From positions 1 through 25,877 of the IMG/VR virus record IMGVR_UViG_3300022539_000055: a stretch of DNA of 25,877 nucleotides. One strand, 5' to 3'. Both the position numbers and the translations under genes were made by a program. Origin of the DNA: a virus. The notes beneath the pieces were generated by a model, which saw nothing but the letters and a program-made list of their open reading frames with translations, was not told where the DNA came from and searched no databases. Below, piece after piece: positions 9,784 to 23,854 of the stretch; within the stretch, counting starts at the first letter, position 1; each line of letters starts with the position of its first letter.

Positions 9784-9791
9784 CACTCCTC

Positions 9792-10303: not shown

Positions 10304-10863
10304 GCTTTTTCCAGCAATATTCTAGCTAACTTAGCATATACATGAACATCCTCTAGCCTCTTGTCCATGCCTTCTACTTCACCTTCATAACCTTGACTTA
10401 GCTGCCATAGTGTAGAGTCTAGTTGTTTGAACATGTAGATAAGAGCTATCACAGCAGGAGTGAGTTTTAGTCCTGGGTAGTTAGACAGGATATTGGCTAC
10501 CCTGGTGAAGTTACCAAGAGGATTACCACCATGAGCGTAGTCATAGTTCTTCTTGGAATGAAGAGCCATTTCTTCTATACATAACTCAATAAACCTCTCA
10601 TGACCATAGGGAAATTGTTTCTTGAGATGGTCACGTAAAGAAAATTCATCTGTGTCACCTATAATTCTCCTCTTAGTTATATCTGCTGGAGTTTCCTCTT
10701 CTTCTTCATCAAGGATACTTCTCCAATCTTCTCCAGAGGCATGTTTTATCGGCTGTCTGTAGTTTTCTGGACTATCAGCCATGAAAGCTTCACATACAGG
10801 ACATACATCATCTATATAAGTTTCGTCTAAATAATGACCATATTGACACCTAATTGTTGGCAT
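10300..10863 (-). CDS. Zinc-finger plus helical DUF1599/MazG-like phage protein
   Basis: 187 residues from ATG 10863, five bases after GGAGG. Residues 1-30 form a CxxxH...CxxC knuckle (CQYGHY, CPVC). An acidic linker follows. Residues from about 75 to the end are all-helical with the segment ALHSKKNYDYAHGGNPLGNF, which recalls DUF1599/DUF6378-type phage domains (nucleotide-modification-associated, MazG-like helical fold). If so it may act on nucleotides beside the deoxyribosyltransferase-like enzyme two genes downstream. The metal knuckle is clear; the domain family is a moderate-confidence reading. Confidence 0.7.
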   Translation of the reverse strand: MPTIRCQYGHYLDETYIDDVCPVCEAFMADSPENYRQPIKHASGEDWRSILDEEEEETPADITKRRIIGDTDEFSLRDHLKKQFPYGHERFIELCIEEMALHSKKNYDYAHGGNPLGNFTRVANILSNYPGLKLTPAVIALIYMFKQLDSTLWQLSQGYEGEVEGMDKRLEDVHVYAKLARILLEKA

Positions 10864-11626
10864 ATCTTCCTCCAAGTGAATCAATCAATCTCTTAGCCAG
10901 TACTCTACCAATACCATCCACTTGATACAAGTCCTTAGCCTTGAGTCCAGCTATCTCTTTCAATGATGTGTACCCTGCATCCTTAATAGACTGAGCCTTA
11001 GTCTCACCTATCCTTAACCCTAGAGCAGCACTGAGATGGACTAGAGACTTCACTAATGGGTCATGGCTCTTGAGTAGTACCTTAGGCTTAATGACCCTCT
11101 GTAGTGTATTGTGCTCTGTCTTCTGAGCATTCTGATAATGTGCCACAAGAAGTCTAGCAGTCTGGACATGGTTCATAGTAAAGAATGTAGTAATCCCTGC
11201 TCTGTCTAAGGCATATATCCATGACTGATACTTGTTATAGCTTACCCTATATACTCTCTCACCATAAATGAATCCATTAGCTGAGACATGATAAGCGTAC
11301 ATGACATCAGAAGATACAGCATGAAACTTAATAGACACTTCTTTCTTCTTCTTGAGAGGTATCCTGATAGGTGTAACAATACCCTCAACAATCTGGAAGT
11401 TCCTGTCAGCATTATCATAGTACTCTCTAAGCTGTCTCTCTGCTTCATCCATGTTAGCCAGTAGTTCACCAGCTTGTTTACGGCTATACTGTTCAGACTG
11501 TCCTTCTATGTCCCAGAAGAAGTAATCACTTAGGGTTTGTTGGTTCAGTGGTTCCAGACTGACTTCCACGGTTTGCTTCAGTAGACTTACCACGTCCTCT
11601 GGTTCGCTTATGTCCACTAGTATCAC
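10850..11626 (-). CDS. ERCC4-type nuclease with helix-hairpin-helix domain
   Basis: 258 residues from GTG 11626, chosen because GGAGG lies exactly five bases upstream and the protein then begins MILVDISEPEDV, the usual first strand of phage ERCC4 nucleases. The frame stays open further upstream (to 11686) without a good ribosome site. Residues 33-70 hold the nuclease region with SDYFFWD and YSRKQAGELL; the classical Glu-Arg-Lys is here Ser48-Arg49-Lys50, so the first catalytic acid is changed. From about residue 190 to the end there are two helix-hairpin-helix repeats (LGLRIGETKAQSI, VDGIGRVLAKRLI), as in XPF/Mus81 proteins. It probably binds branched DNA during recombination or replication. 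Whether it still cuts is open. Confidence 0.85.
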   Translation of the reverse strand: MILVDISEPEDVVSLLKQTVEVSLEPLNQQTLSDYFFWDIEGQSEQYSRKQAGELLANMDEAERQLREYYDNADRNFQIVEGIVTPIRIPLKKKKEVSIKFHAVSSDVMYAYHVSANGFIYGERVYRVSYNKYQSWIYALDRAGITTFFTMNHVQTARLLVAHYQNAQKTEHNTLQRVIKPKVLLKSHDPLVKSLVHLSAALGLRIGETKAQSIKDAGYTSLKEIAGLKAKDLYQVDGIGRVLAKRLIDSLGGRYANN

Positions 11627-11834
11627 CGAATCCTCCACATTCATACTTAATCTTCTTACCTTGGACTTCATGCCATTGAGGCTCACTCAGTTCTACATAG
11701 TTACGTACACTCTTGATGATGATCTTCTTAGGTAGCTTGTTATTATTCTTGAATCGGTACTGCACAATGTACCTCTTGAAGAGGAAGTCAAGGTCTACCT
11801 CATTGATAATCATGTTTCCTTTATCAAATTCCAT
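11526..11834 (-). CDS. Small basic protein overlapping the ERCC4 nuclease gene
   Basis: 102 residues from ATG 11834, which overlaps the upstream stop (TAATG). The first 65 residues are ordered, basic and beta/alpha mixed; the last 35 are Gly/Thr/Arg/Ser-rich and look disordered. These last residues are encoded by the same 101 bases that start the nuclease, in another frame. No other gene explains 11627-11834, so the N-terminal part is likely real; the tail is more doubtful. Function unknown, possibly DNA-binding. Confidence 0.55.
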   Translation of the reverse strand: MEFDKGNMIINEVDLDFLFKRYIVQYRFKNNNKLPKKIIIKSVRNYVELSEPQWHEVQGKKIKYECGGFGDTSGHKRTRGRGKSTEANRGSQSGTTEPTNPK

Positions 11835-12073
11835 TAGTTCTCCTTATATGGTTCATCTACCAGAGTTATCAACAACTGCCGTATAGACTCTGGTGCTTGC
11901 CAGAACCTACTATCTGGCAGACCTACTGTGCGTAGCCACTCCTTGAATATCTCCTTTACCTTATCAACTGCATCAGGGATAGGGTAAGGGTCAAGCATAT
12001 TTTCCTTCAGCATTTCAGTTAGTGTTGGTGGTGTAAAGTATTTCTCGGCTGCTACATCCTCTGGTGTTCCCAT
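11834..12073 (-). CDS. Small helical protein of unknown function (79 aa)
   Basis: ATG 12073 with GGAG six bases upstream, one base after the TGA of the Sak4-like gene; its TAA overlaps the next ATG. Acidic, helical, with Pro-rich turns and a conserved-looking WQAPESIRQLL segment. No metal site or membrane helix. It lies between two recombination genes, which suggests but does not show a role there. Confidence 0.65.
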   Translation of the reverse strand: MGTPEDVAAEKYFTPPTLTEMLKENMLDPYPIPDAVDKVKEIFKEWLRTVGLPDSRFWQAPESIRQLLITLVDEPYKEN

Positions 12074-12074
12074 A

Positions 12075-12866
12075 TCACTCTCCTGCCAATGTATTCCTTA
12101 AATCTACAAGACCTTGATAGGATGGTTCAGGTAAGCTCATACCAAGAGCAGTAGTACCCATACCAGCTAAGGCACACTTCTTAACTATCTTAGCCTCAAC
12201 TTCACTCTGCCTGTTGAACTCAAGTCTAACTATGATGTCTACTAGCTTACCTGTATCTTTGAAACCATCAGGTACTATCTCTCCAGAAGGCATACTCTCT
12301 GATTTATCACCTTTCTGGACAGTAATATATACATCTTTGGAATAGTGTGTCAGAACAAGATACTTCTGGTAGCTTTTGGCTGCATTGATAAGCTGTCTCA
12401 TTCTAGCATTAGGATCAGCATACTCCACAGGTATAATGTTGGATCTAAATAGCTTGTCAGTCTCCTTCATACCAGCAGCAAGTTGAGTCTCTTGTAGTTC
12501 TTGTAGGTATCCTCTATGACAGATAGACCACAGTTCAGTAGCAGAATCAATCACTATAGTCTTAACTTTAGGATCACGACATGCTTTGACATACTCCACG
12601 AATATCTGTTGCCACAGTTCCTTGATACCAATGAGTCTCTTAGGAAACTTAACTGTTATCTTCTTACCTTCTTCCATAGGTAGAGGAGGTAGGTAAGTAG
12701 TAGTCTCTATCCCTTTGGTATCAAGTCTCCATGCTGCTCTATTGAATCCCCCAACATCAGTCTCAATATGGACAAGAGGTTTAGGATATGTTAGACCAAA
12801 GGTAGTCTTCCAACTTCCTTCATCACCCCACAAAACTATAACATGGGGAGGTAAATCATTTGTCAT
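12075..12866 (-). CDS. Sak4-like RecA-fold ATPase
   Basis: 263 residues from ATG 12866, four bases after GGAGG and overlapping the upstream stop (ATGA); an in-frame start at 12941 would extend it into the neighbour and is rejected. Walker A is GDEGSWKTT at residues 14-22, Walker B is KTIVIDSATEL with Asp107, and a strand LVLTHYSKD follows as in RecA-like ATPases. The size and plan match phage P-loop proteins of the Sak4/AAA_24 group, which support single-strand annealing recombination. Neighbouring Cas4-like and ERCC4-type nucleases make a recombination module. The exact mechanism cannot be read from the sequence. Confidence 0.8.
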   Translation of the reverse strand: MTNDLPPHVIVLWGDEGSWKTTFGLTYPKPLVHIETDVGGFNRAAWRLDTKGIETTTYLPPLPMEEGKKITVKFPKRLIGIKELWQQIFVEYVKACRDPKVKTIVIDSATELWSICHRGYLQELQETQLAAGMKETDKLFRSNIIPVEYADPNARMRQLINAAKSYQKYLVLTHYSKDVYITVQKGDKSESMPSGEIVPDGFKDTGKLVDIIVRLEFNRQSEVEAKIVKKCALAGMGTTALGMSLPEPSYQGLVDLRNTLAGE

Positions 12867-13081
12867 CTTTCCTCCTTCTTTAGGTCGGATGCTTTGAAAT
12901 ACTTTATAAGTCCAAAGTTGACATTTTTGGCTACAGTCCACTCACATTTGATAATGGGATAACTATGGATGTTTACTCCTGTATGGGGTTTTATTATCTC
13001 TAATACCTTAGCCCACGCATAATTGGGAGCATTCTTATGTCTATAATACTCTCCAATTTTAATATCTTTTATTTGGGTCAT
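12863..13081 (-). CDS. Small beta-rich protein (72 aa)
   Basis: ATG 13081 lies within the end of the Cas4-like gene, and its TGA overlaps the ATPase ATG. The sequence (IKIGEYYRHKNAPNYAWAKVLEI and following strands) has the strand pattern of a small SH3- or KOW-like barrel, often used for nucleic-acid or protein contact. No catalytic residues. Family not identified; role inferred from operon position only. Confidence 0.65.
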   Translation of the reverse strand: MTQIKDIKIGEYYRHKNAPNYAWAKVLEIIKPHTGVNIHSYPIIKCEWTVAKNVNFGLIKYFKASDLKKEER

Positions 13082-13754
13082 TAGTACCTCCTATTTCTAT
13101 AGCATCACATACTATTGAATGTCTACAAGACCACTTAGATTTAAGAAGAGGACATTCCCAATCCTTACACCATACTTTAGGTATAGGTGCTAGTTTAGCA
13201 TTAAGGCTATCCATAAGGACATTCCTTCTGTTGATTATTCTGTACCAATTATCTAATAGTTCTTCATCAGTAAACTTCAGTGTCTCAGCCCTAATCTTAG
13301 GGAATGGTGGCTTGTAGTCACCCATCATATAAAGGATAACAAGCTCGTATTCATTGATACCTCTAATATAACAGCCACCCATGATGTATTCAACCCATGT
13401 CTCAGTTAATGCTTCTTCAGCGTACCTCATGGATTTCCTAGTAGTCTTAATTTCAAAGTACTTATCATCCACCTTGAGCATGAAGTCAGGTGAATAAGTA
13501 ATCCCATCCTTCTCAAACACAGGAGCTTCTGCTTCTTGTGGAGTCAGAACATCCTGTAGTCCGTAGCCTAGTGCAAACAACATAACCTCTTCTTCAGTAG
13601 GTTGTATATACTGAGTGAAGTCAAAGTATGCTCTGGTCAGGCAGTAGATGACAGTAGACAAATGAATACCTTGTCTCTGCTGCCTGATATTATACAGGTC
13701 AGCAAGGTGACTCAGGGCATATTGTTCCATTTCAGGATTGTGTAATCTTTCCAT
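13059..13754 (-). CDS. Cas4-like PD-(D/E)XK exonuclease, probable Fe-S protein
   Basis: 231 residues. Near the N-terminus GIHLSTVIYCLTRAYFD carries His31 and Cys38, as in Cas4/AddB-type nucleases. The nuclease core is SPDFML (Asp90) followed by FEIKTT (Glu101, Lys103), the PD-(D/E)XK signature. Cys196, Cys201 and Cys210 near the C-terminus, with Cys38, can form the 4Fe-4S cluster that holds these folds together. Cas4-family enzymes resect DNA ends. There is no CRISPR array or other cas gene here; beside the Sak4-like ATPase it most likely serves phage recombination. Start ATG 13754 overlaps the upstream gene by 23 nt. Confidence 0.85.
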   Translation of the reverse strand: MERLHNPEMEQYALSHLADLYNIRQQRQGIHLSTVIYCLTRAYFDFTQYIQPTEEEVMLFALGYGLQDVLTPQEAEAPVFEKDGITYSPDFMLKVDDKYFEIKTTRKSMRYAEEALTETWVEYIMGGCYIRGINEYELVILYMMGDYKPPFPKIRAETLKFTDEELLDNWYRIINRRNVLMDSLNAKLAPIPKVWCKDWECPLLKSKWSCRHSIVCDAIEIGGTNDPNKRY

Positions 13755-13917
13755 CTTTTATCCTGTAGTAGACTACTTCTCCAGCAGTCCTTACTGTATC
13801 GTCTATTGGTTTCAGTGCTATGATATGTCCATCATCACCCATAGCTGCATGTGCTCTCTCAAGTACCTCAATAGGGTCAGCACCATCCTTGATTCGTATC
13901 CAGACTAACTCAATCAT
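13732..13917 (-). CDS. Small protein of unknown function (61 aa)
   Basis: ATG 13917 overlaps the previous stop (ATGA). Alpha/beta sequence with a central helix (DPIEVLERAHAAM) between two strands; acidic, soluble, no cysteines. It precedes the Cas4-like nuclease and overlaps it by 23 nt. No family recognised. Confidence 0.65.
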   Translation of the reverse strand: MIELVWIRIKDGADPIEVLERAHAAMGDDGHIIALKPIDDTVRTAGEVVYYRIKDGKITQS

Positions 13918-14105
13918 CTACCAACCTCAATGTATCTAAGCTCTTCTCGGTGTCCGTTTCTTTGAATGTACAAAAGAAGTCCTGCTTCTTTATGGTAGTC
14001 ACCATCATCTATAGAGACTTCAATGTTACCAGCTTCATATGATGGTGAGTTTACACATGATATGTATTCACATTGGACTTGATAAAATAACTCTTCTAGT
14101 GTCAT
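13914..14105 (-). CDS. Small acidic protein of unknown function (63 aa)
   Basis: ATG 14105 has AGGAG seven bases upstream and gives 63 residues: an N-terminal helix with Cys12 and Cys17, then beta strands, soluble. An in-frame GTG at 14213 would add 36 residues but lies in a stretch that can fold into RNA hairpins and has only a weak ribosome site, so the shorter form is preferred. Function unknown. Confidence 0.6.
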   Translation of the reverse strand: MTLEELFYQVQCEYISCVNSPSYEAGNIEVSIDDGDYHKEAGLLLYIQRNGHREELRYIEVGR

Positions 14106-14233
14106 AATAATGCTCCTATGGGTAGGTAAGGGCTGGTACTTATTTTCGGTGCGACCTTGACGATTCCAACTATGGTAGGATACGTCTTTACCTACTACCC
14201 TCACCTTTCCCACATTACCGAGTGGCTTATAGC
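14106..14233 (-). ncRNA. Structured intercistronic RNA segment
   Basis: A 128-nt gap in an operon that otherwise overlaps its genes. On the minus strand an outer stem pairs 14200-14188 with 14129-14120 (GGGUA, 3-nt bulge, GGUAA with UUACC UACCC). Inside it sit a hairpin 14186-14178/14167-14159 (GACG..UCC with GGA..CGUC) and a small GGU/ACC hairpin at 14156-14148. The outer stem ends 8 nt before the AGGAG of the next gene. No T-run and no good promoter are seen. Pairing read by eye only. Confidence 0.4.
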
Positions 14234-14905
14234 CTATGCTACAGCGTGAAAGATACCATCAGCATCTTCTTCAAACTGTCCAGACTTGAGAGCATCAGTA
14301 ATGAAAGTCTTACTGGTGATCTGTGCCTTGATATAACCAGCACCTTGAGCCTTCACTGTAGGATCTGTCATAGCAGCCCTATTGAACTCTACTCTAGTCT
14401 TACCATCCAGTAGACCAGCCAGTACATCCTCTACTGTACCAGTAGCAGCACTGACACCATCAACACCTAGAACTTCCCATGCATCTTTGATAACATTAGG
14501 TCGTTCATTCTCATTGATGGGATTACCATCATCGTCTACAGTAACCTGCCAGTTCTTGTCTTTGAAACCATAGTTATGTCCAGGTGTGTAGCCCATAGTA
14601 ATCACCTTACCTACTGCATCTTTTATGTCTTCATCGTCAGTAAGATACTCAGCAAGTGACTCTGAGAAGACTCCCCAAGCAGAGTTTCTAAGGTTTGAAT
14701 CTTTGATTAGAATCTCTGCTACCAGGAATGGATAAGGCTCTACAGCCTCTTCGACTTCAACATCAGTAAATTCAAGATGATTCTGGGTGACACTCCACTT
14801 ATCCTCTTTATCGTAGCACCTATCAAGTATACCACTGAACTTAACCAGTGGATAACCTGATCGCTGTCCTGATTCTTGAAGTCCTCTGATTGTTACGTCT
14901 GCCAT
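14234..14905 (-). CDS. Replication-module protein, possible ssDNA-binding (unproven)
   Basis: 223 residues from ATG 14905, nine bases after GGAGG; an in-frame start at 14932 has no ribosome site. The N-terminal 120 residues are beta-rich (several alternating hydrophobic strands), the middle is helical, and the sequence is acidic overall. Its size, acidity and place between the helicase and the recombination genes would fit a phage single-stranded DNA-binding protein, but no OB-fold motif can be recognised by eye and the C-terminus is not the usual acidic tip. Treat as hypothetical with that suggestion. Confidence 0.65.
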   Translation of the reverse strand: MADVTIRGLQESGQRSGYPLVKFSGILDRCYDKEDKWSVTQNHLEFTDVEVEEAVEPYPFLVAEILIKDSNLRNSAWGVFSESLAEYLTDDEDIKDAVGKVITMGYTPGHNYGFKDKNWQVTVDDDGNPINENERPNVIKDAWEVLGVDGVSAATGTVEDVLAGLLDGKTRVEFNRAAMTDPTVKAQGAGYIKAQITSKTFITDALKSGQFEEDADGIFHAVA

Positions 14906-14906
14906 A

Positions 14907-15050
14907 TTAGTTTTCCTCCTTCTTTTCTTCAATTACCTCTACATTTTGAATCTCTGCATCACCATAATCAGCCATGCTTTCCATTACCTCTTCCATGTTT
15001 GCATACATTGGATCAACTATGTAGGTAATTGTGTACTTGAGTTTCTGCAT
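14907..15050 (-). CDS. Small acidic protein (47 aa)
   Basis: ATG 15050 follows a TAA directly, with GGGGGGA six bases upstream; TAA at 14907-14909, one base before the next ATG. One N-terminal strand (MQKLKYTITYIV) and a Met/Glu-rich acidic helix with a Glu/Lys tail. Soluble, function unknown. Tight fit to both neighbours supports translation. Confidence 0.6.
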   Translation of the reverse strand: MQKLKYTITYIVDPMYANMEEVMESMADYGDAEIQNVEVIEEKKEEN

Positions 15051-15131
15051 TTAATGTCCCCCCATTTTGGTTATTACTAGCACTGGAACCACCAATACTA
15101 GTAGGAATATGATGCCTGCTGTTACTTCAAT
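15051..15131 (-). CDS. 26-residue membrane peptide with probable AUU start
   Basis: After the promoter at 15152-15180 the RNA begins near 15145, and an AGGAGG stands five bases before ATT at 15131. The frame from that codon is open for 26 residues, mostly one hydrophobic helix (AGIIFLLVLVVPVLVI), and its TAA directly precedes the next ATG. No ATG, GTG or TTG start exists at a useful place. AUU is a rare but real bacterial start codon (as in infC). If the peptide is not made, this ribosome site has no purpose. Moderate confidence. Confidence 0.45.
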   Translation of the reverse strand: MEVTAGIIFLLVLVVPVLVITKMGGH

Positions 15132-15151
15132 ACTACCCTCCTGTATTGTAT

Positions 15152-15180
15152 ATTATAAAGGATTTCTCCCTTCATGTCAA
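15152..15180 (-). promoter_or_regulatory. Sigma-70 promoter
   Basis: TTGACA at 15180-15175, 17-bp spacer, TATAAT at 15157-15152: both boxes match consensus perfectly. Predicted start site about 15145, 14 nt before the AUU codon. It overlaps the last bases of the upstream gene. Confidence 0.8.
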
Positions 15181-15410
15181 CCCTCTGGGATAATAACCAA
15201 CATTCCTGGCCCATCAATACGTTGTTCAGAACCAATACTTATGAATGTAAAACTACCAATAACACTAATACCACTTTCTCTTAGTGCTTCAAGCATAGCA
15301 TCAGCACCAGCTTCATAGGTACTATGTTGTTCTAATTGTCCTGGTAATCCTATGAACCAAGGTAGATTGTCTGGATTGATTGGGTTCTTCCATCCTTCAG
15401 GTCGGTACAT
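15177..15410 (-). CDS. Small phage protein of unknown function (77 aa)
   Basis: ATG 15410 five bases after GGAGG. N-terminal MYRPEGWKNP, then a helix YEAGADAMLEALRESG and two strands. This opening followed by a helix with the EAGADAML pattern is seen in small phage proteins of unknown role. Soluble, no cysteines. Its end carries the -35 box of the next promoter. Confidence 0.7.
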   Translation of the reverse strand: MYRPEGWKNPINPDNLPWFIGLPGQLEQHSTYEAGADAMLEALRESGISVIGSFTFISIGSEQRIDGPGMLVIIPEG

Positions 15411-15483
15411 TATATCCTCCATAAATAGAAACAATAATATATATACATTATATAGTATACTGTCTATTTTCTATTTATTCTAG
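15411..15483 (-). promoter_or_regulatory. AT-rich gap with possible promoter and operator
   Basis: A 73-nt gap almost free of G and C. A weaker promoter fits: TAGACA at 15466-15461, 17-bp spacer, TATATA at 15443-15438, with a start near 15431, 21 nt before the ATG at 15410. An 8-nt palindrome AGTATACT lies at 15454-15461, inside the promoter, and repeats of TTCTATT-like sequence follow on its right. It could be an operator, or an easily melted site. Confidence 0.4.
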
Positions 15484-15651
15484 TTACTTAAAGGGTAATG
15501 TTAGAATCTTCACTAGTAGTATTGCAGGCCAAACAAAAGTACATATAATTAAATCTACATCTTCACGTAGGATTACACATACCTTATTGGCTACAATACA
15601 ACCAATTCCATAATAGGCTATTGATGCTAGTACTATCTGCCAAACTTCCAT
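15484..15651 (-). CDS. 55-residue membrane protein, two helices
   Basis: ATG 15651 overlaps the helicase stop (TAATG); TAA at 15484-15486. Two hydrophobic segments (about residues 5-22 and 34-50) are separated by a short charged loop (LREDVD), so both ends probably lie on the same side of the membrane. Function unknown. Confidence 0.6.
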   Translation of the reverse strand: MEVWQIVLASIAYYGIGCIVANKVCVILREDVDLIICTFVWPAILLVKILTLPFK

Positions 15652-16499
15652 TATTCTAACCCCCTTATACTAATCTGTCTCTCCTCTGGTTCATCAAAGG
15701 GTATGGAGTCTATCTTAGTTACCCTTGGATGTAAGGTCTGTCTACTCCAAGCTACCTCAAACCCAGGGAGATAATCCTCTGCATGTCTAGCATATGTGAA
15801 GTCACACCTGACTCTACTCTTCAGTCCACCAGGATCAAGCAGTTGTAGTCTCATTTCTGTGTCACACCATCCACCTAACCAGCTACTACCCAGTGACTCA
15901 TGTCCCTTAGCATCAATGAGATCACCAGTAATAGTAAACACAGGTTGTCTTGAGTGGTGGAGTAGGATAACAGCAAGGTTAAATTTATTCTTAACCTTGT
16001 TAATGGCTTGAAGAAGACGACCTAACTCTTGTTGTTGAGAGATGTTACCAGTTACCATATTGAGAAGGTTATCTAAGATTAACACAACCTCCTCCTTAGG
16101 GTAGTGCATACGGACATTAGCTAGTATTCTGGATAGGATTTGTTCACCATATGTGGTATCAAGAGGTAAGTCATCAACAGTACGGAACAAGACATTAGTT
16201 CCAAACACAAGGTCTTCATGTGCCTTGAACTTCTTGATTCTCCTTTGGAATCTAGCCTTAGGAATCTCTATCTGGACATACACAGGTAAGACCTTCCTAG
16301 TCTTATAACCAAACCAATCCTTACCTTGAGCTAGACAGAAGGATAAATGAATAGCTGTGTTAGACTTCCATGCTTTAGGATCACCAAAGATAACAAAGGA
16401 TGTGTTAGGTACTAGGATACCTCCTGATATAATATCATCATCCCTTGTTGGTGGTGTCCATAAGAGTAATTCATCGAGTGTATCAAACTCTTTAGGCAT
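15651..16499 (-). CDS. RepA-type replicative DNA helicase (AAA_25)
   Basis: 282 residues, close to the single-domain hexameric helicases of the RepA/AAA_25 group. Walker A is GDPKAWKS at residues 39-46, Walker B is VVLILDN with Asp143, and a LLHHSRQ segment (His181, His182) lies where RecA-fold helicases carry a nucleotide-sensing residue. No primase domain is attached. It should unwind DNA for the family-A polymerase. The ATG at 16499 is the only possible start, as an in-frame TAA lies 15 nt upstream. Only a poor AAAGAAA ribosome site is present, and a long structured leader with its own promoter precedes it, so expression is probably controlled at the RNA level. Confidence 0.88.
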   Translation of the reverse strand: MPKEFDTLDELLLWTPPTRDDDIISGGILVPNTSFVIFGDPKAWKSNTAIHLSFCLAQGKDWFGYKTRKVLPVYVQIEIPKARFQRRIKKFKAHEDLVFGTNVLFRTVDDLPLDTTYGEQILSRILANVRMHYPKEEVVLILDNLLNMVTGNISQQQELGRLLQAINKVKNKFNLAVILLHHSRQPVFTITGDLIDAKGHESLGSSWLGGWCDTEMRLQLLDPGGLKSRVRCDFTYARHAEDYLPGFEVAWSRQTLHPRVTKIDSIPFDEPEERQISIRGLE

Positions 16500-16642
16500 T
16501 ACATTTCTTTAGTACCACGGTGGCTACCATGCTTGGGCTAAGACATGGTACAGGAAGTTGCAAGCCCTATCACCTTCACTCCCCCTACCACCGCAGTACT
16601 GCACTGTGCTGACACCATGTATTCACGGTGATGCAACAGTAC
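16500..16642 (-). ncRNA. Structured 5' leader of the helicase mRNA, switch-like with pseudoknot
   Basis: The predicted RNA starts at 16642. Elements read by eye on the minus strand: P0, 16642-16636 (GUACUGU) with 16602-16596 (GCAGUAC), 7 bp; a hairpin CACCGUG-AAUA-CAUGGUG at 16630-16613; P2, 16599-16588 (GUACUGCGGUGG) with 16523-16512 (CCACCGUGGUAC), 12 bp with two GU pairs; and hairpin UACCAUG/CAUGGUA at 16550-16544/16531-16525, whose 12-nt loop carries AGCCC able to pair with GGGCU at 16567-16563, a pseudoknot. P0 and P2 share four bases and exclude each other. P2 ends 12 nt before the start codon. No known riboswitch class is recognised. Confidence 0.6.
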
Positions 16643-16648
16643 ATTATT

Positions 16649-16677
16649 ATTATACCTGATTTGAAGCTAGTTGTCAA
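16649..16677 (-). promoter_or_regulatory. Sigma-70 promoter of the helicase transcript
   Basis: TTGACA at 16677-16672, 17-bp spacer, TATAAT at 16654-16649; perfect consensus. Predicted start 16642, the first base of the leader stem P0. It lies at the extreme end of the upstream gene. Confidence 0.8.
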
Positions 16678-16906
16678 GTAGTCTTCTAAGATATTTTACT
16701 ATGTAGGCATGCTCATCCTTAGCACCCTTTGTATATGAAATATAGTCTATGGAATGTATATGGCGTGTCTCAGTATATGAGGGTAAGTTCAATTCTATCC
16801 TTTCTATGTCATCAGCAACAGCAGCAAGGATTAGTTTGACTATACACAGTGCAGACTCACCATATTCATCATCTAGGATTTCTGTTATCCATTCCATCAG
16901 ATTCAC
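16667..16906 (-). CDS. Small helical protein, GTG start (79 aa)
   Basis: GTG 16906 overlaps the previous stop (GTGA) and has GGAGG four bases upstream; the in-frame ATG three codons later is too far from it. Acidic N-terminal helices (with ESALCIVKLILAAVADDIERIEL) and a polar C-terminal helix. No membrane segment. Function unknown. Its last codons contain the helicase promoter -35 box. Confidence 0.65.
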   Translation of the reverse strand: MNLMEWITEILDDEYGESALCIVKLILAAVADDIERIELNLPSYTETRHIHSIDYISYTKGAKDEHAYIVKYLRRLLDN

Positions 16907-17124
16907 AGTCCCTCCATATTTAGTTCATTATCTTCTGCATCAAGGTCAACATCACCTGTCTCTTCTTCAGTACAGAACTGACATAACCCATTAGTATCTA
17001 CTGCCAAGTGGTCTTCACCAAACAACAGTCCACATAAAGTACAATGTGGATGTTGTCTACTGAATGACTCCCAATCATCCATAGTTGTACTGAACTCACA
17101 GACAGGACATGTTCTTATTGCCAT
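16903..17124 (-). CDS. Triple CxxC zinc-ribbon protein (73 aa)
   Basis: Three CxxC knuckles: Cys6/9 (CPVC), Cys28/31 (CTLC) and Cys48/51 (CQFC), with His25 and His27 nearby, then an acidic tail rich in Asp and Glu. The pattern allows one complete four-Cys ribbon plus a third half-site. Start ATG 17124 lies one base after the previous stop. Probably a DNA-, RNA- or protein-binding adaptor; no family assigned. Confidence 0.7.
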   Translation of the reverse strand: MAIRTCPVCEFSTTMDDWESFSRQHPHCTLCGLLFGEDHLAVDTNGLCQFCTEEETGDVDLDAEDNELNMEGL

Positions 17125-17125
17125 A

Positions 17126-17497
17126 TTATATCTGCCTCACTGCAAAACCTATGTCTAGTTCTTTTAATGTAGCCTTTATGTCCTCAGATAGATTATCCCA
17201 AGCTTGTTCTGCAACCTGTTGTGTCTTATCTGCACCACTTGTATGAACATTCAGAACTATAGTACCATTGTTACCTTGAGTTCTCATGTCTTCATAATAA
17301 GACACAAACTGTCCAGCAGTATTAAGACTTGCTTGTAGAAGTTCTATGTGAAGTCGGAAGGGTAAAGATTCTAAGTATTCTTCCCCGCCACTTTGAATAA
17401 AAGATCCATCAGGATACAATCTACGAGTGACTGGCCCAATGTAACCCTTAATTGTTTCTAGGTAAAAGACTTGTTCTTTATATGGTTTCTCTATCAC
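17126..17497 (-). CDS. Hypothetical early protein (123 aa)
   Basis: Start taken as GTG 17497, which overlaps the upstream stop (GTGA) with AGGTGG upstream; an in-frame GTG at 17542 would add 15 residues without support. N-terminal beta strands (VFYLETIKGYIGPVTRRLY), a central helix, and a polar C-terminal helix with several Gln, Asp and Lys. Soluble; nothing recognisable. Confidence 0.65.
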   Translation of the reverse strand: MIEKPYKEQVFYLETIKGYIGPVTRRLYPDGSFIQSGGEEYLESLPFRLHIELLQASLNTAGQFVSYYEDMRTQGNNGTIVLNVHTSGADKTQQVAEQAWDNLSEDIKATLKELDIGFAVRQI

Positions 17498-17712
17498 TCC
17501 AGTCCCACCTGACGGCGTAGCTGTTCCCAGCACAGCCGACACGCTATTTTCTTCTTCACTGGGTGAATCATTAAAGGATGATTTTCACATTGACTGTCTA
17601 GCCACTTCACTAACTTCTTCGCCTGTGCTTGGATTAATACCTTAGCTATGGAATTATTTTTCAAATGTGCTTGCCATAAAGCTTCTGACATTTCCTTTTT
17701 GTCAGTTCCCAC
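17494..17712 (-). CDS. Small protein with CxxC (72 aa)
   Basis: Frame from GTG 17712 to the TGA at 17494-17496. The ATG at 17691 is an alternative start, but its AAGGA is only one or two bases away. Helical N-terminal part, then CENH and CRLC (CxxC) near the C-terminus that may bind one metal ion. Basic overall. Function unknown. Confidence 0.55.
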   Translation of the reverse strand: MGTDKKEMSEALWQAHLKNNSIAKVLIQAQAKKLVKWLDSQCENHPLMIHPVKKKIACRLCWEQLRRQVGLE

Positions 17713-17719
17713 TCAGCCA

Positions 17720-17974
17720 TCATCCCTCTCTTATTCTCTTTCTCCACTTACTAACAGTACTTCTATCTACTCCAATATACATAGCCACATCATCAATAGA
17801 ACCAGTAGCAACTAACTCTTGGATAGGTGTACTGTGCTTTAGTTCAATGAACATCATCCTGATAGTCTTCTTGAATGGTGTAGGTAGTTCATCAACACTA
17901 ATAGGATTCTTAGTCCTTGGGGCAAGAACTACATTACGCTTCTTGAGTATCTTGTCCTTCAGATTCTTAGCCAT
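17720..17974 (-). CDS. Small helix-turn-helix DNA-binding protein
   Basis: 84 residues; ATG 17974 overlaps the upstream stop (TAATG). The C-terminal part SIDDVAMYIGVDRSTVSKWRKRI (about residues 59-81) is a clear helix-turn-helix, with the recognition helix RSTVSKWRKR. The basic N-terminal 20 residues (KDKILKKRN) may also touch DNA. It is the only evident DNA-binding regulator in the minus-strand operons and a candidate controller of the early promoters or of the late switch. Confidence 0.75.
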   Translation of the reverse strand: MAKNLKDKILKKRNVVLAPRTKNPISVDELPTPFKKTIRMMFIELKHSTPIQELVATGSIDDVAMYIGVDRSTVSKWRKRIREG

Positions 17975-18165
17975 TACACATCTATTTCAAATAGTACTTT
18001 GTCAGTCTTTGAGCCATCGTCAAAGTATCCATCAATTACTTGAACTTTACCCTTGAATCCTGAACTCCTTAGCCAAAGTAAAGATACTCTTAGGACTCTA
18101 GTAGTAGCTATGATCTCCTTGACCTCAGACACAACATAATCATTTACTTTAAGTTCCTCTGCCAT
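17974..18165 (-). CDS. Small beta-rich protein (63 aa)
   Basis: ATG 18165 six bases after GGAGG. Alternating hydrophobic strands (VNDYVVSEVKEI, VQVIDGYF, VLFEIDV) suggest a small barrel. Soluble, no cysteine. Coupled to the HTH gene by TAATG. Function unknown. Confidence 0.65.
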   Translation of the reverse strand: MAEELKVNDYVVSEVKEIIATTRVLRVSLLWLRSSGFKGKVQVIDGYFDDGSKTDKVLFEIDV

Positions 18166-18168
18166 CTT

Positions 18169-18297
18169 CTACCTCCTTTTCTCTGTTAATACTATATGAA
18201 CACACATAATAGTGTACTCACAGTCTTCACAATCATTACCATACTTTAGGTCTATGAAACCTAAGCAGTCAGGATGATGTTCAAGGGAAGTCGTCAT
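18169..18297 (-). CDS. 42-residue Cys-rich protein
   Basis: ATG 18297 inside the end of the previous gene; TAG at 18169-18171. Cys11, Cys23, Cys26 and Cys32 with His7 and His8 (EHHPDC, DCEDC) fit a small zinc site. Basic C-terminus. No family recognised; tiny zinc proteins are frequent in this operon. Confidence 0.5.
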   Translation of the reverse strand: MTTSLEHHPDCLGFIDLKYGNDCEDCEYTIMCVHIVLTEKRR

Positions 18298-18391
18298 GTT
18301 CTACCTCTATCAGCACCATGACTTCCTCTTCAAACTCTAGTCCACAATCAGGACAGGTTACTGTTACAATTACTTCTGTTTCAACTTCCAT
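18281..18391 (-). CDS. 36-residue acidic protein with CPDC knuckle
   Basis: ATG 18391 with GGGGAAG three bases upstream, overlapping the end of the previous gene. One CxxC (CPDC) between two strands and a very acidic tail. One knuckle gives only two metal ligands, so it may pair with itself or with the following Cys-rich protein, whose start overlaps it by 17 nt. Confidence 0.5.
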   Translation of the reverse strand: MEVETEVIVTVTCPDCGLEFEEEVMVLIEVEHDDFP

Positions 18392-18551
18392 TAACTTCCC
18401 CAGATAATTCCATGACATCTATTATAAGAGGATAAAGGTATTCGTTTCGCCACAATCCTATAGCTTTTTGTCGTGCTTCAAGTGGATCTTTAGTGTCAAC
18501 TACAATCCTTTCTTGATTGACTTGTTCTATATAGACTGCATATCGTTTCAT
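18381..18551 (-). CDS. Small protein of unknown function (56 aa)
   Basis: ATG 18551 (part of ATGATG overlapping the upstream stop), AAGGA seven bases upstream. Starts with a strand MKRYAVYIEQ, then a helix PLEARQKAIGLWRNEYL; an arrangement seen in small phage proteins related to replication, but with no named family. Soluble. Confidence 0.55.
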   Translation of the reverse strand: MKRYAVYIEQVNQERIVVDTKDPLEARQKAIGLWRNEYLYPLIIDVMELSGEVNGS

Positions 18552-18820
18552 CATGCCATCCTTTCATCTGGTGCTTTAGTAGCCTGTACCCTTGCTATTT
18601 TTTCAAGAGAAGGTAGCTTGACATTACTATCAACTACCCTCTCAGGGAATGGATAGCTACCCTGCATAGGACACTTCCTCTGATGGACATATGTACCATC
18701 CTGTCTCTTTATAAGTGATGGAGTACCCTTGATACCTCCAGGCATACCACACTTAACACAACAGATAGGCTTATGTCCTGCTCTTTCTTGTCCTGTAAAC
18801 TTATTCTTGTCTTTAATCAT
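18551..18820 (-). CDS. Basic zinc-finger-like protein (89 aa)
   Basis: Start ATG 18820, which overlaps the upstream TAA by eight bases; longer in-frame starts would overlap the upstream gene more and lack a ribosome site. Cysteines CCVKCG and, after a basic loop, HQRKCP give a CxxC...H/C arrangement for one zinc. Many Lys and Arg residues suggest nucleic-acid contact. Function unknown. Confidence 0.6.
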   Translation of the reverse strand: MIKDKNKFTGQERAGHKPICCVKCGMPGGIKGTPSLIKRQDGTYVHQRKCPMQGSYPFPERVVDSNVKLPSLEKIARVQATKAPDERMA

Positions 18821-18983
18821 GATCCCCATCAGGTAGAATGATAGTCCTTGATATACTAACCACATCAGGTCGTCCTTTCACCCAGTACATCAGTTCTTCA
18901 ATATGCTTCTGAGTATCAAGGATTGCATTGACACCTGAATGGTAGTCTGCATTATAGAGAATCTTTACTTCAACAAGTCTCAC
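18813..18983 (-). CDS. Small protein, GTG start (56 aa)
   Basis: GTG 18983 overlaps the previous stop (GTGA). Strand-helix-strand sequence (VRLVEVKILYNADY, then ILDTQKHIEELMYWV, then VVSISRTIILP) like a small alpha/beta sandwich. Overlaps at both ends support translation. Function unknown. Confidence 0.55.
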   Translation of the reverse strand: MRLVEVKILYNADYHSGVNAILDTQKHIEELMYWVKGRPDVVSISRTIILPDGDHD

Positions 18984-19150
18984 TTCTCTTCCACCAGTTC
19001 TTTATTAAAACATTCCTTACATCTAACAAATGCTGTTTTCCGTGAATTTTCTGTGTACCTTATAAGGTACACAGCCTCATTCTTGAAGTAGCGACCACAA
19101 TTACAATGTAGTGTTTCATTGCCTATTAAATATAAGGTTATGTAGTTCAT
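18980..19150 (-). CDS. Small zinc-ribbon protein (56 aa)
   Basis: ATG 19150 four bases after GGAGG. CNC (about residues 16-18) and CKEC (44-47) flank a beta hairpin, the usual layout of a zinc ribbon. Basic C-terminal helix. Function unknown. Confidence 0.65.
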   Translation of the reverse strand: MNYITLYLIGNETLHCNCGRYFKNEAVYLIRYTENSRKTAFVRCKECFNKELVEEK

Positions 19151-19158
19151 ATCTCCTC

Positions 19159-19632
19159 CTAGTTCACACAAGGATTGAAGTCATCAGGGGGTAAAGCATC
19201 CTCTACCATCTTCCTAACCTGCTTCTTTTCCTCTATTTCATCAGCTACTTCTTGTCTCTCTGGTGTCATCTCATACTCAATACCATACTCCTTGAGTACA
19301 TCAATCTTAGCTTGACAAGAAGTACAGTCACAGTTAGGAGTAATGATAGGCTCTAACACCTTCTTTACATACTCTGGTGACATGGTAGGAGCATCAGCAC
19401 CTATACCATTCTGTCCTAGATAGTAACCGATCCTTAGTGTTGTTGCCATACTGTATAGCATGGCTGCTGGTACATCTAAGTAGTTCTCTAGGGTTATGGC
19501 AGCAATCACTGTCATCATTGATACATTTGTCTGTATCAACTTAGCATCCTCTTCTGGATTACATTCTATTAGATAGAGTATACCATTTACCCACTTAGTA
19601 TGTTGTAATGAGTCTTCATAAGGTATGTCCAT
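19159..19632 (-). CDS. Helical early protein with CxCxxC (157 aa)
   Basis: ATG 19632 four bases after GGAGG. Mostly helical: residues 35-85 form long hydrophobic helices (MMTVIAAITLENYL, AAMLYSMATTL), then a Cys cluster CDCTSC at about 101-106 and an acidic coiled-coil tail. The hydrophobic part is less continuous than a true membrane span. It is the first sizeable gene after the promoter at 19764-19792. Family not recognised. Confidence 0.65.
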   Translation of the reverse strand: MDIPYEDSLQHTKWVNGILYLIECNPEEDAKLIQTNVSMMTVIAAITLENYLDVPAAMLYSMATTLRIGYYLGQNGIGADAPTMSPEYVKKVLEPIITPNCDCTSCQAKIDVLKEYGIEYEMTPERQEVADEIEEKKQVRKMVEDALPPDDFNPCVN

Positions 19633-19644
19633 GTTACCTCCATA

Positions 19645-19740
19645 TTAAGTGTTCTTGCCTATCCAAATACCTAAAGCAATAGCAAGAGCAAGACCAACTG
19701 CTGTCCATACACCAAGAGTTATTGGTATTATTACATCCAT
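19645..19740 (-). CDS. 31-residue membrane peptide
   Basis: ATG 19740 seven bases after GGAGG and 17 nt after the predicted start site of the promoter; TAA at 19645-19647. One hydrophobic helix (residues 4-27) with Gly and Ala faces and a short basic end, a typical single-pass peptide. Function unknown. Confidence 0.6.
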   Translation of the reverse strand: MDVIIPITLGVWTAVGLALAIALGIWIGKNT

Positions 19741-19763
19741 AATGTGTCCTCCGAGATGTCATT

Positions 19764-19792
19764 AGTATAGCAGATACAGTTGATGTTGTCAA
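19764..19792 (-). promoter_or_regulatory. Sigma-70 promoter
   Basis: TTGACA at 19792-19787, 17-bp spacer, TATACT at 19769-19764. Start site about 19757, 17 nt before the membrane-peptide ATG. Confidence 0.75.
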
Positions 19793-19794
19793 CC

Positions 19795-19890
19795 CTATCT
19801 CTTCAGTGACCACTTCTCTCTAGTCTTAGGGTGAGTATGATGTCTGACAGTATACCCCTGACCAATACAAGCATTGATAAACCTATCCAT
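19795..19890 (-). CDS. Small basic peptide (31 aa, or 51 aa from 19950)
   Basis: The frame ends with TGA at 19795. Start ATG 19890 has AAGG about five bases upstream and gives 31 residues; ATG 19950 would add 20 residues but overlaps the upstream zinc gene by 44 nt without a good ribosome site. Strongly basic, with HHTH and a Lys/Arg end. Function unknown. Confidence 0.45.
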   Translation of the reverse strand: MDRFINACIGQGYTVRHHTHPKTREKWSLKR

Positions 19891-19906
19891 ATCACCCTTA
19901 GTTGGC

Positions 19907-20053
19907 TTACCTGCTATGGGCTGGTGGGATACTCTTCTTCTTGCACTCATTACATATCCAGATATAGTGCCATACTGGTAGACCACGATACCATCTGTCT
20001 ATCTTAGGTATCCTGTAAGGTGCATCACTACCACAAAAATGGCACAACATCAT
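19907..20053 (-). CDS. Zinc-ribbon protein (48 aa)
   Basis: ATG 20053 four bases after GGAGG. CHFCG (Cys4, Cys7) and CNEC (Cys34, Cys37) flank a Trp/Tyr-rich strand pair, a complete four-Cys ribbon. Basic tail. Function unknown. Confidence 0.65.
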   Translation of the reverse strand: MMLCHFCGSDAPYRIPKIDRWYRGLPVWHYIWICNECKKKSIPPAHSR

Positions 20054-20061
20054 ATCTCCTC

Positions 20062-20391
20062 CTAGTAAGATGCTATCAAGCCACCTGTGAACTTACCTGC
20101 TGGAACAAACCGCTTACTCTTAGTACCTGTAACTCTCTTGCCAGCACGTAGCACACCACCAAACCTAGACTTCTTAGTAAGAACAACGATGTAACCACCG
20201 TTAGGTTCAGCAAACTCTCTTGAACCACGTTGTTCATAACCTAAAACATTGACTAGCCACTTAGCATGACACTTAAAGGCGGACTCTGTAGAGTAGTGTA
20301 CTTTGGGTTGTTCTTTTCTAAGGTGACTACTCAGGATAGCATCACTACCTTGACAATGTCCTATTGGTACACCACAAAGATAAGCTCTCAT
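20062..20391 (-). CDS. Basic early protein (109 aa)
   Basis: ATG 20391, one base after the previous stop. Soluble, basic, with a helix (ESAFKCHAKWLVNVLGYEQ), a strand GGYIVVLTKKSRFGG and a Gly/Lys/Arg-rich end (RAGKRVTGTKSKRFVPAGK) typical of nucleic-acid-binding tails. No recognised family. Confidence 0.65.
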   Translation of the reverse strand: MRAYLCGVPIGHCQGSDAILSSHLRKEQPKVHYSTESAFKCHAKWLVNVLGYEQRGSREFAEPNGGYIVVLTKKSRFGGVLRAGKRVTGTKSKRFVPAGKFTGGLIASY

Positions 20392-20392
20392 T

Positions 20393-20566
20393 TTATCTTC
20401 TCTCTAAGTAGTCTATCCACTTGTCATAGTCAAACTTATCATTCTCTTCTTCAAACCAATCCATCAACCCCTTGAGTAGTTCAGATCGGTCAATGTATGG
20501 ACTGAGTGGGACATCAGCATCACGTATGATGTCTGCTACTCTCTTAAAGTCCTTCTTAGCTAGCAT
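20393..20566 (-). CDS. Small helical acidic protein (57 aa)
   Basis: ATG 20566 four bases after GGAGG; the longer frame from 20614 enters the structured gap and is not used. Helices with MLAKKDFKRVADIIRDAD and an acidic end DWFEEENDKFDYDKWIDYLE. Soluble, small, acidic proteins in early phage operons are often inhibitors of host proteins, but nothing specific is seen. Confidence 0.6.
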   Translation of the reverse strand: MLAKKDFKRVADIIRDADVPLSPYIDRSELLKGLMDWFEEENDKFDYDKWIDYLERR

Positions 20567-20762
20567 TACTCCTCCTTCGTGTAAGACTGCGTTAAGAATA
20601 CGCTCTGTAATCAATATCTGAGAGAGTATTGACAGTACCTATACATCTGTATGGGTTACCAGAATCCAACCTAAGCCCCTCAGATGTAATTTGTATCTAA
20701 CCTCCCCAGTGTAGAGATTATGAATACTGTCATTATACCCACAATCCCTACGGCTGGACTGA
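20567..20762 (-). ncRNA. Non-coding gap with several hairpins (possible leader)
   Basis: No convincing gene in 196 nt. Minus-strand pairings: 20685-20679 with 20622-20616 (AUCUGAG/CUCAGAU) closing a loop that holds AUAC/GUAU at 20652-20641 and GGUU/AACC at 20671-20654; then GCGU/ACGC at 20603-20589, just before the AGGAGG of the next gene. A TATAAT at 20737-20732 lacks a matching -35 box, so a promoter is uncertain. A structured leader or processing site is possible. Confidence 0.3.
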
Positions 20763-21176
20763 CTAGCTCTTCTTGGCACGTCCCTTCACCCTATCCTTGA
20801 CAATGCGCACATCAAAGTCACCATTGCCAAAGTCTCTTGACAACCACACACCCTCGACTAGCTTGAGTTCCTCTTCACTAAGGTTATCACAGACTTCATT
20901 GATAGCTCCTTCAATGGCATTACGGAAGCAATCTCTCAAGAATGATACTTGTTTGAGTGCTGCTTCCTTCTTAGCTTCTACTGCTGATCTCTCTGCCTTG
21001 CTGATCTCCCTTGACAGTTTGGATACTGTCTTCCAATCCTCTGTTGCCCTGGCAGTATCAAACTGTGCCTTGAGATCATCAACAGTACCAGTCTTGACTG
21101 CACCTAATGGTTGAGAACTAGGCTTAGTCTTAGGCTTGCCAGTCTTATTGATTAGAGTCTTAGTATCCTCATTCAT
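20763..21176 (-). CDS. Coiled-coil protein, first gene after promoter (137 aa)
   Basis: ATG 21176 nine bases after GGAGG. A Lys/Pro/Thr/Ser-rich disordered N-terminus (about 25 residues), then a charged coiled-coil helix (residues 30-75, Ala/Lys/Glu-rich), and a beta-rich end with GNGDFDVRIVKDRVKGR. Soluble. It is the first product of the 21201-21228 promoter and so may be abundant. Family unknown. Confidence 0.7.
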   Translation of the reverse strand: MNEDTKTLINKTGKPKTKPSSQPLGAVKTGTVDDLKAQFDTARATEDWKTVSKLSREISKAERSAVEAKKEAALKQVSFLRDCFRNAIEGAINEVCDNLSEEELKLVEGVWLSRDFGNGDFDVRIVKDRVKGRAKKS

Positions 21177-21200
21177 CTTGTCTCACCTCCTCTCTAGTAT

Positions 21201-21228
21201 ATTATACCTCATAGGTTGCTCTTGTCAA
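21201..21228 (-). promoter_or_regulatory. Sigma-70 promoter
   Basis: TTGACA at 21228-21223, 16-bp spacer, TATAAT at 21206-21201. Start site about 21194, 18 nt before the ATG at 21176. The sequence TTTAATTCTATTT lies just upstream of it at 21251-21263. Confidence 0.75.
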
Positions 21229-21352
21229 CCTTAATACCTTATTTACTCTATTTAATTCTATTTCTTTACGCCTATCAATGTCGTGTTACTTAACTCCTGT
21301 TAACTTCACTTACTCTGGACACTAGTGGAACTAATGCCTAGTACAAGCTAAG
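21229..21352. other. AT-rich gap upstream of promoter
   Basis: No gene is supported. It holds the TTTAATTCTATTT repeat (21251-21263, also at 24832-24844) and a weak ACTAG/CTAGT inverted pair near 21320-21342. No T-tract terminator was found. Confidence 0.4.
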
Positions 21353-21463
21353 TTAATTAAATGACATCTGGATTCTTAACATCCACCACATTGGGATGTA
21401 GTACATCCAGTCTTCGTTACGCTCACCACACAGTACAATCCATCCTAAGTATACGTGGATCAT
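21353..21463 (-). CDS. 36-residue Trp-rich peptide
   Basis: ATG 21463 with GGAGG four bases upstream, TAA at 21353-21355. Aromatic and Met-rich (three Trp pairs or singles, several Met) with an amphipathic rather than fully hydrophobic profile, so it may lie on the membrane surface. The strong ribosome site is the main evidence. Function unknown. Confidence 0.55.
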   Translation of the reverse strand: MIHVYLGWIVLCGERNEDWMYYIPMWWMLRIQMSFN

Positions 21464-21488
21464 GTTACCTCCTTTGCTAACCACTCTT

Positions 21489-21525
21489 GAGCTAGTGAAC
21501 AGAGACCAGGTGTGCTCACTAACTC
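21489..21525 (-). other. Stem-loop upstream of the Trp-rich peptide
   Basis: GAGUUAGUGA (21525-21516) pairs with UCACUAGCUC (21498-21489): 10 bp with one GU, loop of 17 nt. It sits between a stop codon and the next GGAGG, with no U-run behind it, so it is more likely a processing or stability element than a terminator. Confidence 0.4.
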
Positions 21526-21540
21526 GGGACTGACTAGCTA

Positions 21541-21678
21541 CTATTTAGTTTTACCTGTGTTGATGCGCTTTATTGGTTTAGGTTCTTTCTTTGGTCTTTG
21601 GTTACAACTTGTACAGGTTCCTAAATAGGGTGTGTGGAATGTAAACTTGCCACACTTTGAGCAGCTTTTCCACTTCAT
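21541..21678 (-). CDS. Zinc-ribbon protein with basic tail (45 aa)
   Basis: ATG 21678 overlaps the previous stop (ATGA). CSKC (Cys6, Cys9) and CTSC (Cys22, Cys25) form a complete small ribbon, followed by a Lys/Pro/Arg-rich tail likely to bind nucleic acid. Function unknown. Confidence 0.65.
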   Translation of the reverse strand: MKWKSCSKCGKFTFHTPYLGTCTSCNQRPKKEPKPIKRINTGKTK

Positions 21679-21854
21679 TTTCTTGTAATGAGATAGCCTA
21701 CGATAACCTCATGTTCTGTGTCGAGACAGTGCTTGCGTGCTGCTGCTTCGACAAAGTTACCATTGGGTGCTTCGTACAACCACTCACTACACGAGGGACA
21801 GTAGGCTTGCCAAGTGATTTTACCCTGATCGTTGGTTGCTACTTGTGTTTCCAT
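21675..21854 (-). CDS. Zinc-finger protein (59 aa)
   Basis: ATG 21854 after AGGGAGGAGAG. CPSC (Cys19, Cys22), then KHC (His42, Cys43) and EH (His48) give a C2-H/C type zinc site. A plus-strand frame at 21657-21938 over the same bases has no ribosome site or partner genes and is a shadow. Confidence 0.65.
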   Translation of the reverse strand: METQVATNDQGKITWQAYCPSCSEWLYEAPNGNFVEAAARKHCLDTEHEVIVGYLITRK

Positions 21855-22095
21855 CTCTCCTCCCTTCTACCTATAAGTGTACTCTCATTGATTCAAAAGC
21901 ACAATACTCTTAACTTACCTTTACTTACAAGTTTTTAGTGTCCCAACTCTTGACAGTGCAGTGTTAACCAGCAGGAGCCTCGTATAAGACATGATTAGTA
22001 GGGGGTACGGGTAGAGTTGTTTGCAGTGTATAATATCTTCCTGATCTGTCAGTCTGAAATTCTCAAATCTGGAAAACTCTAGGGGAACAGATGTT
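21855..22095 (-). other. Non-coding gap, possible promoter and foldable leader
   Basis: 241 nt without a supported gene. A weak promoter fits (TTCAGA 22058-22053, 17 bp, TATTAT 22035-22030; start near 22023). The RNA could pair CAACUCU at 22019-22013 with AGAGUUG at 21950-21944. A 23-residue open frame inside has no ribosome site. Confidence 0.35.
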
Positions 22096-22287
22096 CTATG
22101 AACTTATAAGCGTAACACTTGGATCTTTTAGATCATAATGTGCATCTGTTATACTAAGATACAAGTCTGTTGGGGGATCAGATAATTGCTGTAATATCCT
22201 TAAGTCTTCGACAATTTCCAAAAAGTACTTTACAGCATCATCAATATTATCCCAACATTGTTCCATTGGTATGTATACCTTTTGCAT
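22096..22287 (-). CDS. Small acidic helical protein (63 aa)
   Basis: ATG 22287 four bases after GGAGG. Acidic, helical (CWDNIDDAVKYFLEIVEDLRILQQL) with a C-terminal strand. Soluble. Small acidic early proteins may mimic DNA or block host factors, but this is only a possibility. Family unknown. Confidence 0.65.
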   Translation of the reverse strand: MQKVYIPMEQCWDNIDDAVKYFLEIVEDLRILQQLSDPPTDLYLSITDAHYDLKDPSVTLISS

Positions 22288-22296
22288 GATACCTCC

Positions 22297-22458
22297 TTAT
22301 TTTTCCTTAAATGTAAACGGTACAGGATGGAAACCTGTCCTTGGACATAGTTTCTTACAGAAAGGACACCTAGCCTTAGTCTTGAGATTACCAACAGGTG
22401 CTCTTGTTGTAAAGATAATTCTACAGCGTTCTTTACATACAAAGTCATAGAATGGCAT
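22297..22458 (-). CDS. FmdB-like zinc-ribbon protein (53 aa)
   Basis: ATG 22458 overlaps the upstream stop (TAATG). The start MPFYDFVCKERC is the FmdB-type opening (MPxYxxxCxxC), with Cys8 and Cys12, then CPFC (Cys31, Cys34). FmdB ribbons are putative regulatory or assembly factors. A longer frame at 22230-22448 in another phase is a shadow of this gene. Confidence 0.7.
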   Translation of the reverse strand: MPFYDFVCKERCRIIFTTRAPVGNLKTKARCPFCKKLCPRTGFHPVPFTFKEK

Positions 22459-22652
22459 TATCCATATCTCTCATCTTCTTCTTTACTGGTGTTCCAGAAG
22501 ATGTGACCTAACAGTACTCCAAGTAGTAGTGTCCCAAACATCCAGGCTATAGGATGTCTCTTGTAACTATCCCTCAGGATAAATGTCCAGGATCTATCAC
22601 CAGCATGTCTCCATACTTGTTTGTATAACTTAGTCCCAAGGTGTTCATCCAT
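22458..22652 (-). CDS. Single-pass membrane protein (64 aa)
   Basis: ATG 22652; basic, aromatic N-terminal half (KQVWRHAGDRSWTFILRD), one hydrophobic helix at about residues 35-53, and a short acidic tail (SKEEDERYG). The charge pattern suggests the N-terminus inside. Function unknown. Confidence 0.6.
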   Translation of the reverse strand: MDEHLGTKLYKQVWRHAGDRSWTFILRDSYKRHPIAWMFGTLLLGVLLGHIFWNTSKEEDERYG

Positions 22653-22658
22653 AATTGT

Positions 22659-22730: not shown

Positions 22731-22739
22731 GACTTCTCC

Positions 22740-23845: not shown

Positions 23846-23854
23846 GATTCCTCC

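Follow-up and report, generated by a model that had tools for sequence, protein, structure and literature searches.

The DNA analysed here (the window) is the whole of a 25,877-bp IMG/VR virus record of an uncultivated phage, for which a megablast search against GenBank phages returned no near relative. Its minus strand encodes a helicase-like ATPase of 282 aa, assigned to AAA_25 (Pfam PF13481, E 7.7e-21) and matched by primase/helicase entries in PHROG; a Sak4-like AAA_24 protein and a family A DNA polymerase lie 3′ of it on the same strand. The stretch 16500–17720, which holds four small ORFs, a promoter and the leader described below, separates an HTH gene (17720–17974) from the helicase, and in several relatives (e.g. 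L018, L115) an HTH-like gene immediately precedes the helicase. The promoter is one of six found in the scanned range 7000–25877 and is followed, 7 nt beyond its −10 box, by a predicted +1 at G 16642. This position, already proposed in an earlier note on this DNA, is at that distance a fair candidate for the RNA 5′ end. The note had also remarked on the short leaders made by other promoters, and four other consensus or near-consensus promoters on the minus strand do reach a plausible start codon after about 15–18 nt, as read from the sequence, making the 143-nt helicase leader unusual in this record. The features of the locus are as follows.

15651–16499, minus strand: helicase-like ATPase gene, led by the leader RNA
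16649–16677, minus strand: sigma-70 promoter of the leader transcript, TTGACA-17-TATAAT, 12/12 match
16601–16642, minus strand: P1, 5′-terminal hairpin (nt 1–42) of the MFE fold; pair probability about 0.998, last pair 0.51
16587–16600, minus strand: P2 5′ strand (nt 43–56), abutting P1; pair probability 0.905–1.0
16552–16584, minus strand: P3 hairpin (nt 59–91), 7-bp stem with loop GAAGGUGAUAGGGCUUGCA; pair probability 0.79–0.99
16525–16550, minus strand: P4 hairpin (nt 93–118), loop with AGCCC; pair probability 0.66–1.0
16511–16524, minus strand: P2 3′ strand (nt 119–132), abutting P4; pair probability 0.905–1.0
16563–16567, minus strand: GGGCU in loop 3, by complementarity a possible kissing partner of loop 4
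16535–16539, minus strand: AGCCC in loop 4, by complementarity a possible kissing partner of loop 3
16538–16573, minus strand: candidate short leader ORF GTG...TAG with SD-like pairing, 11 codons before the stop; second in-frame GTG at 16579
16497–16504, minus strand: AUGUAAUG, containing AUGUAA (16499–16504), a start-stop minimal frame with its UAA overlapping the helicase AUG (UAAUG)

The leader (16642–16500, minus strand) folds with an MFE of −64.8 kcal/mol and a z of −4.86; with 1000 shuffles the z is −5.1 and none of the shuffles folds equally well, placing the energy far below chance. Among about 2,000 segments of 150 nt covering both strands of the whole record, the leader region ranks first (−64.6 kcal/mol versus −55.5 for the next), and it has the lowest energy and the lowest z of 58 promoter-proximal 140-mers drawn from the window and the loci collected for comparison. 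The runner-up segment, 13576–13725 on the plus strand, is antisense to a gene. By comparison, the antisense strand of the leader reaches only −40.6 kcal/mol (z −0.8), and 9 of the 51 pairs in the transcribed sense are G-U pairs, whose antisense equivalents are A-C mismatches. This asymmetry, together with the G-U pairs, favours selection on RNA and disfavours a DNA palindrome. The fold thus belongs to the RNA as it is transcribed, and the claim of a structured leader on the helicase mRNA is strongly supported, although a stable fold by itself is no proof of function. Adding 50–200 nt of upstream sequence leaves the MFE fold unaffected, so that read-through transcripts would carry it too.

The folded element spans nt 1–132 and consists of the P1 hairpin followed by a P2-P3-P4 three-way junction. 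P1 is a two-part hairpin (z −3.7 on its own) in which the first bases of the leader pair with nt 36–42. The predicted first transcript base is itself paired, with a probability of 0.998 if +1 is 16642, and starts at 16645–16642 would leave 0–3 free 5′ bases. The long stem P2 of the earlier note is present and longer than had been described, with 14 bp (16600–16587/16524–16511), and the 7-bp hairpin said to lie within it corresponds to P4 (16550–16525). The long P1 arm and the P3 hairpin were absent from that description; it is P3 that makes the second domain a three-way junction. Because P1 and P4 each abut P2 with no free base between, stacking at both contacts is likely in the modelled fold.

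A different 5′ stem, P0, had been proposed to compete with P2. The 7-bp complementarity (16642–16636/16602–16596) exists, but its pair probability is 0.000 and the same 5′ bases sit in P1. Forcing P0 yields −56.4 versus −64.8 kcal/mol, a penalty of 8.4 kcal/mol, hence the two stems are not near equilibrium; P1 is already folded in all transcript prefixes tested of at least 42 nt. Neither state covers the start codon. A two-state P0/P2 switch is rejected on energies. No terminator was found in the leader, and neither was any other expression platform in the form of an alternative fold masking the start. Nothing in Rfam reached the gathering score; relaxing E to 10 brought in only a chance match to the microRNA mir-33, far below its cut-off. 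No Rfam ribozyme was matched, which removes a known ribozyme from consideration, and no tRNA was found.

The earlier note had further suggested a pseudoknot. The complementarity it relied on, GGGCU with AGCCC, is there and amounts to −9.5 kcal/mol before loop penalty, but it is not significant, since shuffled loops pair equally well in 8.7% of cases (p about 0.09). Opening both loops costs 7.6 kcal/mol (from −64.8 to −57.2). A kissing pair between the loops of P3 and P4 is a candidate feature of the folded domain.

Downstream of the folded element, the helicase start has a near-absent Shine-Dalgarno (SD) sequence, as had been noted; its pairing with the anti-SD is worth −2.9 kcal/mol, near the weak end of the scored starts. 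P2 ends about 11 nt before the AUG at nt 144. The 153-nt fold leaves nt 133–153 unpaired (probability 0.96–1.0, and 0.98–1.0 for the start itself), though part of this segment pairs when 120 nt of coding sequence are added. Since the fold leaves the start region uncovered, masking is not expected to repress translation strongly. Stop-start overlaps similar to UAAUG are found at the helicase starts of relatives, and judging by sequence AUGUAA is perhaps a relic of the translational coupling seen there.

Relatives were collected by alignment-based PolA scans, the narrower of which gave about 70 related contigs with a PolA identity of 25–53%. The helicase is encoded in 32 of the 43 records that were searched whole. 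Our comparison of helicase starts covers 32 relatives with a readable start, two of them (L097 and L197) near-identical; all are distant, the helicases being 24–37% identical. In 30 of these 32 the helicase starts between −23 and +32 nt from where an upstream ORF (45 codons or more) stops; in the remaining two, L189 and L112, this distance is 72 and 101 nt. By the pattern used, only L112 among the 32 has a helicase promoter of its own. This promoter is sigma-70-like and lies about 60 nt upstream of the start, the leader is short, the SD is strong (a GGAGG site) and the region has a z of −3.1. That value is the lowest among the relatives, whose leader-region z extends to +2.2, compared with −4.4 for the window in the same run.

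None of the 32 relatives carries this leader at its helicase start. Neither nhmmer nor a covariance model detected a homologue, and thus no family with compensatory changes, in 1.09 Mb of loci or in the 43 full records; the model was built from one sequence, so its sensitivity is low and diverged relatives would be missed. Megablast and distant blastn searches of the leader region in phages gave only a chance match of 33 nt. In IMG/VR, an exact 28-mer pattern had no matches, and a loop-anchored pattern had six, none folding like the leader or found by the covariance model. A pattern of promoter plus GTACTGTT gave 13 matches, none with the leader fold. Single-protein scans with the helicase and PolA returned no relatives, and the tail protein as query brought up just a short match that was unrelated. 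The genome collection yielded only two distant PolA matches. As far as sampled, the leader is probably lineage-specific.

Two other intergenic hairpins in the operon, at 21538–21465 and 20767–20694 (minus strand), both open with GCUAGUCAGUCC and close with GGUUAG, and each begins at a stop codon or directly behind one. Their z is about −2.6 to −3.6 in the sense orientation (for the second, over the whole gap) and about −1 in the antisense. The element with both its ends has no copy in the relatives collected. The two hairpins look like a repeated RNA element and are possibly RNase III sites.

The leader is thus a real, strongly structured orphan phage RNA, ordinary in kind. What was computed, namely the promoter match, the fold and its bias to the sense strand, the weak SD and the absence from the sampled relatives, leads us to favour, at somewhat less than even likelihood, a structured 5′ leader specific to this lineage. 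It would have arrived together with its promoter, and would shield the end of the mRNA and adjust helicase translation. Ancestrally, translation of the helicase was probably coupled to the preceding gene; such a history would explain why the SD is weak and why UAAUG stands at the start. In the lineage studied here a strong sigma-70 promoter and a folded leader now lie in between. The RNA is predicted to fold during synthesis, with P1 at the 5′ end stacked on the P2-P3-P4 domain and the start region left open, A-rich and with hardly any SD sequence, and the leader most likely acts in cis. A paired mRNA 5′ end hinders RppH and RNase E (PMC3997798), and the terminal pairing in P1 would probably retard 5′-end decay in the same way. 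Helicase translation would be kept low by the weak SD combined with a stable block about 11 nt upstream of the AUG, and would be open to a binding protein, for which S1, the helicase and other phage proteins are candidates.

Proteins that act on translation at their own leaders are known from T4, namely gp32 (PMC3014915) and gp43 (PMC535899), and by analogy a replication protein of the phage, the helicase or a different one, might bind the leader as an operator, spreading over or blocking the open A-rich start once it exceeds the DNA. The layout of a folded 5′ element before such a start in a replication gene resembles that of T4 gene 32, whose element is also patchy in occurrence, being absent in RB49 (PMC3014915); however, the protein here is an AAA_25 ATPase and not an SSB, its binding is argued by analogy and the loop-loop pairing is not significant. 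We consider this operator unlikely, though worth keeping in view. A somewhat smaller likelihood goes to the proposal, also made by analogy, that RNase III cuts the P2/P4 helix and so separates early mRNAs or trims them, following the T7 example. P2 (14 bp) and P4 (7 bp) abut in the MFE fold to give about 21 bp with no unpaired base between, read-through transcripts from upstream promoters would present the same fold, T7 R1.1 offers a precedent (PMC8708148), and the two further long interrupted hairpins in the operon make such processing more credible. Against it, the leader is a three-way junction, unlike the classic single hairpin, and the two intergenic hairpins look different from it. Less probable again is a new kind of phage RNA regulator, in which the 5′ hairpin and a kissing-loop three-way junction would sense a phage protein or ligand and set the dose of the replicative helicase, replacing upstream translational coupling.

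The earlier note had also raised a leader peptide. Ribosomes would load at a GTG (16573 or 16579) and translate as far as the UAG of loop 4, where they would stop; with P3 and P4 melted they would reinitiate at the helicase AUG, and this would replace the ancestral coupling to the upstream gene. The SD-like pairing at GTG 16573 is strong (−11.4 versus −2.9 kcal/mol for the helicase), AUGUAA lies in the frame of the GTG with its stop overlapping the helicase start, and the gene layout of relatives makes coupling seem ancestral. Yet that SD is paired within P3 (probability about 0.98), the UAG lies 38 nt upstream of the helicase AUG and a frame of 11–13 codons is expected by chance, leaving this route improbable. 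A chance fold, or a DNA-level repeat (operator or origin hairpin) without RNA function, might be suspected from an ACCRTG word that recurs in several stems and from the missing covariation evidence, but the shuffling result and the strong strand asymmetry render it very improbable. Least probable of all is a riboswitch or two-state switch. The fold is strong, and a compact three-way junction whose loops are complementary is a layout similar to those of ligand-binding RNAs; this is outweighed by the zero probability of P0, which removes the second state, by the lack of a platform masking the start or terminating transcription, and by the absence of an Rfam family or of relatives with the leader.

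Should the favoured structured leader prove regulatory, it would add a further phage case in which the dose of a replication protein is set by a folded leader, and would exemplify a leader RNA arising where translational coupling to a neighbouring gene is given up in favour of a separate promoter; otherwise it stands as a well-bounded orphan structured RNA. Purine-class riboswitches are three-way junctions with kissing loops. The leader shares with them two arms with complementary loops on a single closing stem, and differs in having no Rfam match, no significant kissing and no expression platform. With ompA/papA-type stabilisers it has in common that the first transcribed base lies in a stable 5′-terminal hairpin (PMC3997798), whereas a second, larger domain follows here and an effect on stability is inferred. 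T7 R1.1-type RNase III hairpins likewise provide a long helix in early phage mRNA (PMC8708148), here of about 21 bp and probably stacked, but they are single interrupted hairpins and the leader is branched, with cleavage proposed by analogy. The T4 gene 32 leader combines a pseudoknotted 5′ element with an unstructured A+U-rich start region, and T4-type gene 32 leaders are described as perhaps the only viral pseudoknots in translational autoregulation (PMC3014915). The distance to the AUG is 67 nt in T4 gene 32 versus about 11 nt here, the protein family differs, and the leader has a hairpin and a three-way junction with no secure pseudoknot; what the two share is a folded element 5′ of an open A-rich start, a phage replication gene and a patchy occurrence among relatives (PMC3014915).
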